Source: Methanosarcina sp. DH2
GTDB lineage: Archaea; Halobacteriota; Methanosarcinia; Methanosarcinales; Methanosarcinaceae
Direction: 5' to 3'
Length of the DNA: 64,000 nt
Assembly: GCF_020804225.1 (NCBI RefSeq)
Contig: NZ_WJBI01000005.1
Span: 133,623-197,622 of the forward strand
The notes under the pieces were generated by a model, which made no database searches, was not told where the DNA came from, and saw only the letters and a list, made by a program, of their open reading frames with translations. Positions 37,263 to 41,674 of this stretch are shown piece by piece. Position 1 is the first letter of the stretch; every line of letters starts with the position of its first letter. The position numbers and the translations under genes are program-made.

Positions 37263-37565
37263 CAACTTGTGTTGCATGCTTTTTTATCTTCTCTTTACAC
37301 AGGGCAGAGTCTTAATAGGAGCCATAGCTGGAAAGTTACAGCTGGAAAGTTGCAGCTGAAAAGCCCCATGCTGAAAAGCCCCATGCTGAAATAAAGGATT
37401 GCTTACAGCTGCGGATGCACTAATTAAAGAAAATCAGAGATTTAGGAACGGTCATAAGGTTTATTTAAAATAAAGACATTATAAAAAAGAGTTAGGCTTA
37501 CTGAAAATTAATTTGAAAGTAATTGTGTTTGAGAATTAAGTTAAAAATCAATTATTAATTTAGAA

Positions 37566-37655
37566 GTAGATGGTAGGGTTCGAGTCCCTATTCTCGAGAT
37601 CCCTACCTGCGATCCAACCCTGGATTGAGAGGAAACCCTATTACTCTCAATCTAC
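37566..37655 (+). ncRNA. 90-nt structured repeat element, copy A
   Basis: Closing stem GTAGAT/ATCTAC; hairpin 1 GGTAGGG/CCCTACC with inner TCGAG/CTCGA; hairpin 2 TTGAGAG/CTCTCAA with loop GAAACCCTATTA. Within hairpin 1 an alternative fold, TAGGG-TTCGAGT-CCCTA, is a perfect 5-bp, 7-nt tRNA T-arm. A TATA-like ACATTATAAAAAAG lies 87 bases upstream of the core and an AAAAAAGTTTTTG run lies 40 bases downstream. Four copies in 4 kb, each exactly 90 nt. Strand is set by the order of these promoter- and terminator-like signals and is inferred. Confidence 0.6.
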
Positions 37656-38102
37656 ACACTCATAATGGCATGGAGATATATATCATAACCGATTCAAAAA
37701 AGTTTTTGTAATCTTAAATTTATCTGGATTACATATTTTTATCGTCACTAAAACTTTTAATGGCATTGAAATCTTTTCCATTAATTATTATAAATTTCAA
37801 TGTATTAATTTAGTTTATATCTACAAAGATCTCCTTTAATCGATTCGCAATTTCTCCTGGAAAGTAACAAACCCAGAAACAGGACCTCAAGAGTGAGAAC
37901 TTTTATTCTTAGACGTTTGGGTGAGAGGCAAACTCAGAGAATCTGTAATCTTTGAGGTAGCTTCTTTTAACATATTCGCCATGAATATCCGTTCAGCTAG
38001 ATACAATAATCAGGTTAGTATAAACTAATGTGGAATGATAAGGTTTATTAAAAATAAAGACATTATAAAAAAGTGAGATTCAATCTCAAAATTAGTTTAG
38101 AA

Positions 38103-38192
38103 GTAGATGGTAGAGTTCGAGTCCCTATTCTCGATGTCCCTACCTGCGATCCAACCCTGGATTGAGAGGAAACCCTAATACTCTCAATCTAC
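38103..38192 (+). ncRNA. 90-nt structured repeat element, copy B
   Basis: Differs from copy D at four positions in the core (GGTAGAG, CTCGATG and TAATA changes). The 7-bp stem of hairpin 1 gains one A-C mismatch. The TATA-like ACATTATAAAAAAG lies only 40 bases upstream because of a ~47-bp deletion. The downstream flank matches copy D for about 90 bases and ends in AAAAAACTTTTTTT. Confidence 0.6.
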
Positions 38193-38712
38193 TATCTTTT
38201 ATAACGATCCGGTAATATATCCTAACCGGCCCAAAAAACTTTTTTTAATTCAAATTGTTAAATTGGATATACACTTTTGTTATGATTAAATTTTTAATCT
38301 CGCTATAATCCTGATTTAATTATAAAAATAGGATTATTATATTATCTTTGATTATTATATTATCTTTATAAATATTAAGTTTTTAATCCAAAGTTTTCGA
38401 GCCTAACTTATATTAGAATTTCCGATATTATTAAATATGAAAAATATGCTATTTAATATAGATTTTATATGGCCTGATCGCTGTATCAGATCTATCTGGG
38501 GAATGAAGGAGCTTGAGGATTACCGATATTTTTTTAATTGCAGTTATAGTGTAAAGTTAGTACATGTTATGGAACCGGTGGATATAATCAGTGATAAGGG
38601 CAAATCCGGGCATAATTACATGGAACTCAGGACATAATCATAGAGAGCAAATCCTCATTCTCAGTTTTTTCTCCGGGAAATTTCTACGGAAATAACAAAA
38701 GAGGGATTTATA

Positions 38713-39831
38713 TTGATTAAGATAACATGGGTTGGGATAACAACATTAATTTTAATGTTGTTTTTAACAGCATTAGTTGCAACTGCTTCAGCAGAAGAAG
38801 TTCAACTGAGTCCGGAAGAGGAACTAGGGAAGCTTCTATACTTTGATACAGAGCTATCAACACCCAGGGGGCAGTCCTGTGCAAGTTGCCATGATCCTGA
38901 ATTTGGTTTTGCTGAGCCTCATCAAAATCTTCCAGTTTCACAGGGAGTACTGCCAAACATGTTCGGAAATCGAAACTCACCAAGTGCCGCATATGCGTCT
39001 TATAGCCCGGATTTCAGTTATACATATGATGACGAGGGCCAGATACTCTATTCTGGAGGCCAGTTCTGGGACGGCAGGGCAGACAATCTGATCGAGCAGG
39101 CGAAAGGCCCATTCCTGAACCCTCTGGAAATGCATAACCCGAATAAAATAACTGTAATCCAGAACATCCGGATTTCAGATTATGCAGGTCTCTTTGAAGA
39201 AGTCTACGGACCGGGTGCCCTGGATAATGTAGATACAGCTTATGATTATACAGCTGAAGCGATTGCAGCTTACGAAAGTTCTGCGGAAGTAAATAAGTTC
39301 AGTTCCAGATACGATAAATATCTTGCAGGAGAGTACACCCTATCAGAAGAAGAAAAATTGGGACTTGATCTATTTAATGAAAAAGCCCTGTGTTCAGAGT
39401 GCCATCCAAGCAGTGGGAATGAACCGGTATTTACGGACTTCACGTATGACAACCTGGGTGTGCCCAGAAATCCAGATAACCTGTTTTATAGTTTGCCAAA
39501 AGCATTCAACCCTCAGAAGAGTGCATATATAGACCTTGGGCTGGGTGGCAACGGCCGTACTGAGATAGTTACTCCAGAGAATGAAGAGGGAAAAATGAAA
39601 GTCCCTACTCTGCGAAACATTGGGAAAACGGCCCCTTATACGCATAATGGATATTTCGATAGTCTCGAAGAACTTGTACGCTTCTATAATACGAGAGATG
39701 TGGAGTCAGAGGGATGGCCAGCTCCTGAAGTTGCTGCGAACGTTAATACCGAAGAACTGGGCAACCTCGAACTTAGTGATGCCGAAGAAAAAGCAATTGT
39801 TGCCTTCTTGAGGACGCTGGATGATGAGTAA
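38713..39831 (+). CDS. Exported di-haem cytochrome c peroxidase / MauG-like protein
   Basis: The 372-residue protein has a signal peptide (TLILMLFLTALVATASA). Two c-type haem sites follow, CASCH (C56, C59, H60) and CSECH (C227, C230, H231), in the CcpA/MauG domain arrangement, with FGNRNSPSAAYA and PTLRNIGKTAPYTHNGYF. The family reduces peroxide or oxidises protein residues outside the cytoplasmic membrane. Start may be the TTG at 38713; no ATG precedes the hydrophobic core closely. It stands alone between copies B and C of the 90-nt element. Such enzymes are uncommon in methanogens, and transfer from bacteria is plausible. Confidence 0.88.
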   Translation: MIKITWVGITTLILMLFLTALVATASAEEVQLSPEEELGKLLYFDTELSTPRGQSCASCHDPEFGFAEPHQNLPVSQGVLPNMFGNRNSPSAAYASYSPDFSYTYDDEGQILYSGGQFWDGRADNLIEQAKGPFLNPLEMHNPNKITVIQNIRISDYAGLFEEVYGPGALDNVDTAYDYTAEAIAAYESSAEVNKFSSRYDKYLAGEYTLSEEEKLGLDLFNEKALCSECHPSSGNEPVFTDFTYDNLGVPRNPDNLFYSLPKAFNPQKSAYIDLGLGGNGRTEIVTPENEEGKMKVPTLRNIGKTAPYTHNGYFDSLEELVRFYNTRDVESEGWPAPEVAANVNTEELGNLELSDAEEKAIVAFLRTLDDE

Positions 39832-40445
39832 TCGGAAAAAAAGTATATGCAGAACGGTTGGAACGGCATAATTTGCATCACTAATTCTTGCCTTTGCTAA
39901 AAAGTGAGTTACATAGCCTTCCTTACATATGTCCTGCAAAAGTAAAAGAAAATATTCCTATATAGTTTACTTTAAAGGAAATAATTCCTGAAGGAAATAA
40001 TTCCTGAAGGAAATAATTCCTGAAGGAAACGAGCAGGCTCGAGGAATTTTCGTAATTTAGCCAATTTTCTATCCAGACCAGAACGGTTTTGTCGAGCCTG
40101 AACATAATTTTTTGTATTTTACCTGTCCCTTACCTGTGTAAAGTTATATTAAGGCATTAAGGCACCTGAAAGAAACAAACTCCAGGATTATTGACTAAAT
40201 TCAAATTAAATATACTAACTATTGGATTATCCAGCACCTCTGTTGTCAAGTATGTCTAATGCACCTGAATTTTATAGTATGATAGCAATCATAACCTTTA
40301 TCTAACTTCGGAACATTATAAAAAAGAATTGACGATATATAAAAATAATTGAAAAGTAAATGTTCGATAAAAGACATTTTTTAATAAAATAGGAAATAGT
40401 AGTTAAAGGATAATTAATGTTAAAAAATGATTATTTGATCCAGAA

Positions 40446-40535
40446 GTAGTTGGTAGGGTTCGAGTCCCTATTCTCGAGGTCCCTACCTGCGATCCAACCC
40501 TGGACTGAGAGGAAACCCTATTACTCTCAATCTAC
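40446..40535 (+). ncRNA. 90-nt structured repeat element, copy C
   Basis: The core differs from copy D at only two positions (GTAGTT in the closing stem, GGACTG in hairpin 2), although the flanks have largely diverged. The same TATA-like sequence (ACATTATAAAAAAG) sits 130 bases upstream. Conservation confined to the core points to constraint on the 90 nt. Confidence 0.6.
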
Positions 40536-40700
40536 ATTTGTTTTATAATCAGGTGGACATATATATCATAACCGATTAAAAAAATCCGTTATGAAATGTT
40601 TTTTTGAACTCGTTAAAAATTTCTATCACAAACAAATTTTCAACAGCGTAAAAAACGGGTAAATATACCTTGCTTAAACAGGGCAAATATCTTTTGCTTA

Positions 40701-40833
40701 AGAGCCTATCCGAAAAGTGGTTACCTGCTATAACTTTTACAATATGCAATATGCAAAACCGGAACGGATACTCTGACATTATAGACCTATTGTGACTTTT
40801 CAACATGCATTACTGACTTTTCGGATAGGCTCT
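40701..40833. mobile_element. 133-bp MITE with perfect 18-bp terminal inverted repeats
   Basis: AGAGCCTATCCGAAAAGT at 40701-40718 and its exact complement at 40816-40833 bound a non-coding interior. The flanks read CTTA and AAG, so a short TTA- or TA-type target duplication is possible. The sharp ends suggest recent mobility driven by a transposase elsewhere in the genome. Confidence 0.85.
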
Positions 40834-41156
40834 AAGTAGAATGATATTTATTTTTCTGGAAAAACTCTCGTTTTAGTATAGTTTAATATGTTTAATTGAA
40901 TGCCATATTATATCCAGCTGATTTTGTATTCTATCTTCACTGTGATTAAAATAATTAAACATGGAAATTTATACTGCCATTACCAGACATGAGAAATATT
41001 CATTTTTATTTTTTAATCAGGAAATACAAAATTGATAGAGCAGACATCGAGACAGGTAATTTTAATAACCTGGCAAAAAAGAATTCATATATATCATTAC
41101 ATGGATTTCATGGACATAATATACAATAAATTTAGGAATTTAGTAATTTAGAAACG
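40834..41156. other. Intergenic, no gene recognised
   Basis: AT-rich sequence between the MITE and copy D of the 90-nt element; nothing supported. Confidence 0.5.
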
Positions 41157-41272
41157 GTCATAAGGTTTATTTAAAATAAAGACATTATAAAAAAGAATTA
41201 GGCTTACTGAAAATTAATTTGAAAGTAATTACGTTTTGAGAATTAAGTTAAAAATCAATTATTAATTTAGAA

Positions 41273-41362
41273 GTAGATGGTAGGGTTCGAGTCCCTATTC
41301 TCGAGGTCCCTACCTGCGATCCAACCCTGGATTGAGAGGAAACCCTATTACTCTCAATCTAC
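41273..41362 (+). ncRNA. 90-nt structured repeat element, copy D
   Basis: The reference copy: its core carries all pairings described for copy A with no mismatch in the closing stem or hairpins. The upstream flank (41150-41272) is nearly identical to that of copy A; the downstream flank matches copy B, ending AAAAAACCTTTTTT. It is therefore a mosaic of the two. Confidence 0.6.
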
Positions 41363-41571
41363 TATCTTTTATAACGATCCGGTAATATATATCATAATCG
41401 ACCTAAAAAACCTTTTTTAATTCAAATTTTCAAATTGACTATACATTTCTGTTATGATTAAACTTTTAATGTCATTGAAAATTTTAATGCAAATATAATA
41501 AAAAAGTATTTTTGCAAATAATTTGCAAATATAATTTAAAGAGTTTGCATCATTTTATAGGCAGATTGCAG

Positions 41572-41674
41572 TTTATTTAATTACTTAGTTTATTTAATTA
41601 CTTAGTTTATTTAATTACTTAGTTTATTTAATTACTTAGTTTATTTAATTACTTAGTTTATTTAATTACTTTAA
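41572..41674. repeat. 17-bp tandem repeat, 6 units
   Basis: TTTATTTAATTACTTAG is repeated with essentially no divergence until the last unit, implying recent expansion. It lies about 75 bases downstream of the decarboxylase stop. Confidence 0.95.

Follow-up and report, generated by a model that had tools for sequence, protein, structure and literature searches.

A multi-copy family of apparent stand-alone small RNA genes with two hairpins and exposed C-rich motifs in Methanosarcina and its sister genera

The window analyzed here is a 64,000-nucleotide stretch of the genome of Methanosarcina sp. DH2 (contig NZ_WJBI01000005.1, positions 133,623 to 197,622) and, between a gene for a POR/TPP-type oxidoreductase and one for an Orn/DAP/Arg-type decarboxylase, it contains four elements of 90 nt, all on the forward strand. 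These are copies A (37566–37655), B (38103–38192), C (40446–40535) and D (41273–41362), with a MauG-type peroxidase gene located between B and C. All four lie where the original prediction placed them and are recovered from the window sequence, by BLAST and by a covariance model, with additional evidence from covariation for copy A and from a phylogenetic tree for copy C, which is a distinct paralogue. One 19-mer of the core is found in the window exactly four times, with no occurrence in 100 dinucleotide shuffles. The near-identity claimed for the cores stands, although the pairwise differences range from 1 to 5 bases rather than from 1 to 4 (the B-C pair shows 5), and the length of exactly 90 nt is true of copies A–D but not of the whole family, whose full-length members span 86–100 nt with boundaries slightly wider than those of the 90-nt cores. 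The core is considered non-coding because stops interrupt all three frames in every copy and its length changes by single bases. The same interval also contains a MITE-like element (40698–40836) with terminal inverted repeats and approximately 25 dispersed near-full copies.

Each of the four cores is preceded by ACATTATAAAAAAG, as had been noted before, and copies at this type of locus (class I, see below) carry TCATAAGGTTTATTNAAAATAAAGACATTAT upstream, a promoter-like block that can also be written GACATTAT. In the window the block is on the forward strand and reads GGTTTATTTAAAATAAAGACATTATAAAAAAG for both copy A (37458–37489; a conserved block seen in pattern matches and aligned copies) and copy D (41165–41196; window sequence and pattern matches), GGTTTATTAAAAATAAAGACATTATAAAAAAG for copy B (38042–38073; window sequence and pattern matches), and, in a degenerate form evident from the four-copy alignment, CATAACCTTTATCTAACTTCGGAACATTATAAAAAAG for copy C (40290–40327). 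Across five genomes, all 12 pattern matches to the block are situated ~30–240 nt upstream of a core, and copies at class II loci have, as judged by eye, a more degenerate form of it. Given the spacing typical of archaeal promoters, TCATAAGGTTTATTNAAAATAAAGACATTAT would represent a BRE/TATA element together with the start region, and for copy A the TATA spacing predicts a transcript start at ~37478–37490.

Downstream of the core, nearly every free-standing copy has a conserved tail consisting of an AUAAUG-type sequence, AUAUAUAUCAUAAYYGAY and then an A-run, and all 24 matches to the tail motif in five genomes are directly downstream of a core. In the window the tails are also on the forward strand and extend over 37656–37710 for copy A (with ATATATATCATAACCGAT and a T-run; tail-motif pattern search), 38193–38246 for copy B (with a T-run; window sequence and aligned tails), 40536–40592 for copy C (without a T-run) and 41363–41421 for copy D (with a T-run), the last two being identified from the window sequence and the pattern search. 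This agrees with the A-run/T-run sites that had been reported downstream of A, B and D and not of C. The flanks were also said to have diverged, and most are indeed only 51–69% alike, but the upstream flanks of A and D are 95% and the downstream flanks of B and D 86% alike. RNAalifold predicted no structure for the tail when core and tail were folded together. A small open reading frame in the tail (ATGRCATGG...TAA) was rejected because, by eye, neither its start nor its frame is preserved. In 12 genomes there are tandem cores, in which two units ~96 nt apart are separated by a gap of 8–10 nt and share one tail after the second, and the presence of the tail solely after the second core suggests that a single transcript contains both units. 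For the window, the predicted transcripts would extend over ~37480–37710, ~38070–38246, ~40320–40592 and ~41186–41421.

The core itself is made up of two hairpins joined by a single-stranded linker. In copy A, hairpin 1 (37572–37607, forward strand) consists of GGTAGGG, an inner stem, the loop GUCCCUAUUC and CCCTACC, and is supported by covariation in 9 of 11 tested pairs and by the minimum-energy fold. It is followed on the same strand by the conserved linker TGCGATCCAACCCTG (37608–37622; low entropy and kept in a sister genus) and by hairpin 2 (37623–37652), in which GATTGAGAG and CTCTCAATC enclose the loop GAAACCCTATTA and 94% of cells are paired. The corresponding family elements are GGUAGGG / inner stem / CCCUACC and GAUURAGAG / CUCUYAAUC, with a linker of ~13–18 nt. 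Both hairpins had been predicted from the window alone, and both are supported by covariation over a 71-sequence alignment (A2), in which 91.2% of cells are paired in the two-hairpin fold and pairing falls to 35–51% if the partner is slid by 1–3 columns. Compensatory changes are present among these homologues: 11 pairs show changes on both sides (6.5 in shuffles), and 99 cells do so compared with 36.3 in shuffles, a value reached in 0 of 500 shuffles. Among the paired parts, the inner stem of hairpin 1 varies most, and it covaries (UA:27 and CG:23 at one pair, CG:42 and UA:12 at the next). Hairpin 2 is little variable, with 5 of its 9 pairs deviating only through unpaired cells, and at one pair both sides have changed from GC to AU in 32 sequences. 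Single-sequence folds of copies A–D are also more stable than those of shuffles (z = −5.0, −3.6, −2.4 and −4.1, respectively). Taken as a whole, the 90-nt elements and their relatives are very probably RNA genes.

The unpaired parts of the core are conserved as well as its stems. Near-invariant C-rich motifs, GUCCCUAUUC in loop 1, GAUCCAACCC, and GAAACCCUAUUA in loop 2, are found in both loops and the linker, and in the main type of the family loop 1, linker and loop 2 are conserved as strongly as the stems (entropy 0.19–0.22 for loops and linker, 0.24–0.27 for stems and 0.63 for the inner stem). The linker UGAUCCAACCC, the loop-2 sequence GAAACCCUU and the tail are all retained in the sister genus, where loop 1 has changed to a UUCCC-type sequence. 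The repeated CCCTA had been interpreted as offering alternative partners in a switch, a proposal that finds no comparative support, and the repeated CCC is better read as a set of exposed recognition motifs than as switch partners.

Two further structural proposals fared no better. The closing stem GTAGAT/ATCTAC is part of the lowest-energy fold of A, B and D and may form in the clade of copies A–D, but it is no feature of the family, with 76% of cells pairing and covariation not above that of shuffles. That the elements are tRNA-derived or mimic a tRNA T-arm is scarcely credible, even though TAGGG-TTCGAGT-CCCTA is present in the window copies and Rfam gives a tRNA score of 22.3 bits (below the cut-off of 29, E = 0.28), as covariation of the T-arm pairs does not exceed that of shuffles, ARAGORN finds no tRNA genes, and the TTCGA letters are variable (TTTTGA, TCTGA, GCCGA and others) and change together with their partner TC(A/G)(A/G), which is what the long hairpin requires. 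In line with the original prediction, which recognized no family, Rfam 15 has no match in the window above the gathering cut-off, nor any with E up to 1 at eight related loci.

The four copies are apparently, on the evidence of their sequences, members of a multi-copy family of stand-alone small RNA genes, whose probable role is the regulation of other genes. The window's own genome has 10 copies by BLAST and 11 by the covariance model, which was built from 71 non-redundant copies (alignment A2, R1). Of the 31 Methanosarcina genomes, 27 have matches by sequence alone and 29 by the covariance-model search that had originally been suggested (E ≤ 0.01); carriers include Methanosarcina spelaei, Methanosarcina sp. 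2.H.T.1A.6, MSH10X1 and Ant1. Extension of the search to the whole class (238 genomes in 39 genera, E ≤ 0.001) gave matches in 34 genomes of three genera, all of one family, and none in any genus other than Methanosarcina and two sister genera, with the stricter filters of these wider searches being such that very weak members may be missed. No genome of Methanosarcina or its nearest relatives has more than 11 copies. Viral carriers were considered and rejected, since three exact 16-mer matches in viral contigs lack the structure of the family and are attributable to chance.

The copies sort into three recurrent and conserved locus classes, with further copies elsewhere. Class I, to which the window belongs, lies between the genes for the POR/TPP-type oxidoreductase and the Orn/DAP/Arg-type decarboxylase and usually has 2–4 copies. 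Class II copies lie next to genes for HisKA_2 histidine kinases of the multi-PAS/GAF type or for a LysE transporter, or between such genes, and invariably share the strand of the kinase. Class III is a diverged pair, its members ~500–600 nt from each other, flanked by an FmdE-zinc-finger gene on one side and a FilR1-type regulator gene on the other; the second of the two differs in hairpin 1 and keeps linker and hairpin 2 unchanged. In a tree based on 169 columns, in which many forks have the moderate support expected for that number, copies cluster by locus across genomes and not by genome; copy C groups with copies from six other genomes (support 85) and a class III group comes from seven genomes (support 99). 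Because paralogues group by locus, the near-identity of the A–D cores reflects selection on old paralogues rather than recent copying alone. A mobile or selfish repeat of the MITE or REP type is very improbable for the same reason, and although the elements are multi-copy and palindromic, occur as tandem units, and resemble REP sequences in the GTAG at the 5′ foot of hairpin 1, their number is low, their loci are syntenic, their core shows compensatory changes, and the genuine MITE-like element of that interval does not resemble them.

The conserved neighborhoods could also mean that the element acts in cis, as a leader or 3′-UTR structure of adjacent genes such as those for FilR1-type regulators, histidine kinases or the POR subunit. 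Class III copies precede FilR1-type regulator genes by 210–400 nt and share their strand, and the constant strand relationship of class II copies to the kinase genes would fit as well. However, neither the downstream gene nor its distance is constant among the classes, and class I copies, with a decarboxylase gene convergent to them, have a promoter-like block and tail of their own, so we regard a cis-acting role as decidedly unlikely.

We propose instead, tentatively and with slightly less than even confidence, that these are stand-alone small non-coding RNA genes whose products act in trans by pairing of their C-rich motifs with mRNAs; transcription, action in trans and pairing are all inferred here from sequence. 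Each transcript of ~170–270 nt would comprise a leader of variable length, the ~90-nt two-hairpin core and the conserved 3′ tail, with two cores in tandem at some loci. Each core would expose three C-rich motifs, two in loops and one in the linker, and these redundant motifs would pair with short G-rich sites in target mRNAs, with multiple genes and tandem units serving to raise the RNA dose. The presence of three exposed motifs in each unit, the near-invariance of their letters and the number of genes in a genome suggest that it is these motifs that a partner recognizes. A general anti-Shine-Dalgarno role was rejected, as sequences complementary to the loops and linker show no enrichment at 499 gene starts in ~0.9 Mb of this genome, where true Shine-Dalgarno motifs are enriched (GGAGG, 76 versus 25), and duplex energies of loops and linker at these starts are no better than in control windows. 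Long perfect complements were likewise rejected as conserved targets, since a search for exact 12-base complements yielded no recurrent site: the non-element matches to AATAGGGTTTCC that were inspected are in unrelated places, with one orthologous coding site in two genomes as the sole repeat, and nearly all of the matches to GGGTTGGATCGC are the element itself. Specific targets with short seeds stay compatible with both results.

The partner might also be a protein. A stand-alone RNA that binds a protein specific for C-rich single-stranded motifs and either sequesters it or assembles with it into an RNP, analogous to CsrB/RsmZ but with a different motif, is a real possibility, albeit one that we doubt more than we believe. 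One short motif is present in exposed positions three times per unit (as CCC) and six times per tandem dimer, the number of genes (at most 11 per genome) and the tandem units would provide dosage, and the absence of a general anti-Shine-Dalgarno signal at the 499 gene starts points the same way. In addition, paralogues and genera hardly differ in the motif, the linker, the tail and the greater part of hairpin 2, and for hairpin 2 and tail this near-invariance goes beyond the needs of a pairing seed and is explained at least equally well by a protein partner. Against this, we know of no candidate protein and of no protein-titrating regulators of the CsrB/RsmZ type in Methanosarcina. The constancy of hairpin 2 and tail thus favors a protein partner, and precedent within the genus favors mRNA pairing. 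A bolder version, which we think rather unlikely, is a Methanosarcinaceae-specific RNP in which the multi-gene and in places tandemly duplicated RNA would, through its triplicated C-rich motifs, sequester an archaeal RNA-binding regulator, a counterpart of Csr/Rsm, possibly tied to the adjacent multi-sensor histidine kinases or FilR1-type regulators.

To our knowledge, archaeal small RNAs of known function are few, and the ones characterized so far in Methanosarcina come as single genes or as one pair. The family described here is conserved throughout a methanogen genus and two sister genera, with multiple copies, tandem units and defined structure and motifs, and it is open to direct tests in genetically tractable species such as M. 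acetivorans and M. mazei. If it works as proposed, we would know of no earlier archaeal case of an sRNA that is encoded by several genes and carries redundant recognition motifs, or else of a protein-titrating RNA. Moreover, the covariance model, together with the private promoter and tail motifs, would permit the annotation of some 200 unlabeled loci. The family is apparently undescribed in the open literature, although single members may be present in the 2009 list of M. mazei sRNAs or in the papers on sRNA154 and sRNA41.

Among known regulatory RNAs, CsrB and RsmZ also have several paralogues and a short motif repeated in loops and linkers, but there it is GGA with CsrA as the partner, whereas in the Methanosarcina family it is CCC. 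Closer in origin are sRNA154 and sRNA162 of M. mazei, for which regulation through loop or linker pairing is established (reviewed in PMC5867862; PMC3510493). sRNA154, which is located between MM3337 and MM3338 and controlled by NrpR, is likewise intergenic with two stem-loops, and its loops contact targets (PMC5867862; PMC3177094); the comparison is by description only, and single members of the family could be identical to sRNA154. sRNA162 and sRNA171 resemble the family as paralogous intergenic Methanosarcina sRNAs; they are 191 nt long, lie near an ArsR-type regulator gene and act through linker-mediated pairing (PMC3510493). They have three stem-loops and a 39-nt linker, between SL2 and SL3 in sRNA162, that is their most variable part, and both M. 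acetivorans and M. barkeri have just one copy (PMC3510493), so that the new family, with two hairpins, a short conserved linker and another gene order, is set apart from sRNA162 by description. A striking parallel in design is LhrC of Listeria monocytogenes, whose C-rich motifs bind the Shine-Dalgarno region of lapB (PMC4132741). LhrC belongs to another domain of life and is an analogue rather than a relative, with no sequence homology claimed; its motifs target the Shine-Dalgarno sequence, in contrast to the lack of such enrichment at the 499 starts, and it ends in a terminator hairpin rather than in a conserved tail without predicted structure. Nevertheless, the family shares with LhrC the combination of multiple paralogues and C-rich motifs that recur redundantly in loops and linker, and LhrC itself is encoded by several near-identical genes with three such motifs, two in loops and one in the linker (PMC4132741).

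At the class III loci, where a diverged pair of copies lies between an FmdE-zinc-finger gene and a FilR1-type regulator gene, the second member of the pair retains the linker and hairpin 2 but carries AATTGGGAGCC/GGCTCCCAATT with a different loop in place of hairpin 1 (L044 7717-7835 and L070 1138-1260; L-numbers denote loci with copies of the RNA, with locus-internal coordinates), and the regulator gene follows it ~210-400 nt downstream. Partial elements occur at L119 (1000-3275 and 16984-17406), where half-elements consist of the linker and GATTGAGAGGAAACCC, and the closing arm of hairpin 2 is absent from several of them. Elsewhere, RNA copies are interleaved with genes for multi-PAS/GAF HisKA_2 histidine kinases, always on a shared strand (L041 4481-18230, L042 1641-9440, and L111 1750-15124).

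A short way downstream of copy D are six perfect copies of a 17-bp tandem repeat (AGTTTATTTAATTACTT, window 41570-41671), and the window holds a second tandem repeat of 3.4 × 16 bp (39975-40029). Simple tandem repeats with a unit of ~17-20 bp are located upstream of RNA copies in some genomes, as in L092 before the copy at 2377 (-) and in L070 at ~1860-2070. Between copies C and D is a MITE-like element (window 40698-40836), whose terminal inverted repeats (AGAGCCTATCCGAAAAGT) span 34 bp and are imperfect; the DH2 genome contains ~25 near-full copies of this element.

Copies B and C flank a gene for a MauG-type di-haem cytochrome c peroxidase (window 38713-39831; CCP_MauG domain match), which is present at this locus in some genomes only and is surprising for a strictly anaerobic methanogen.
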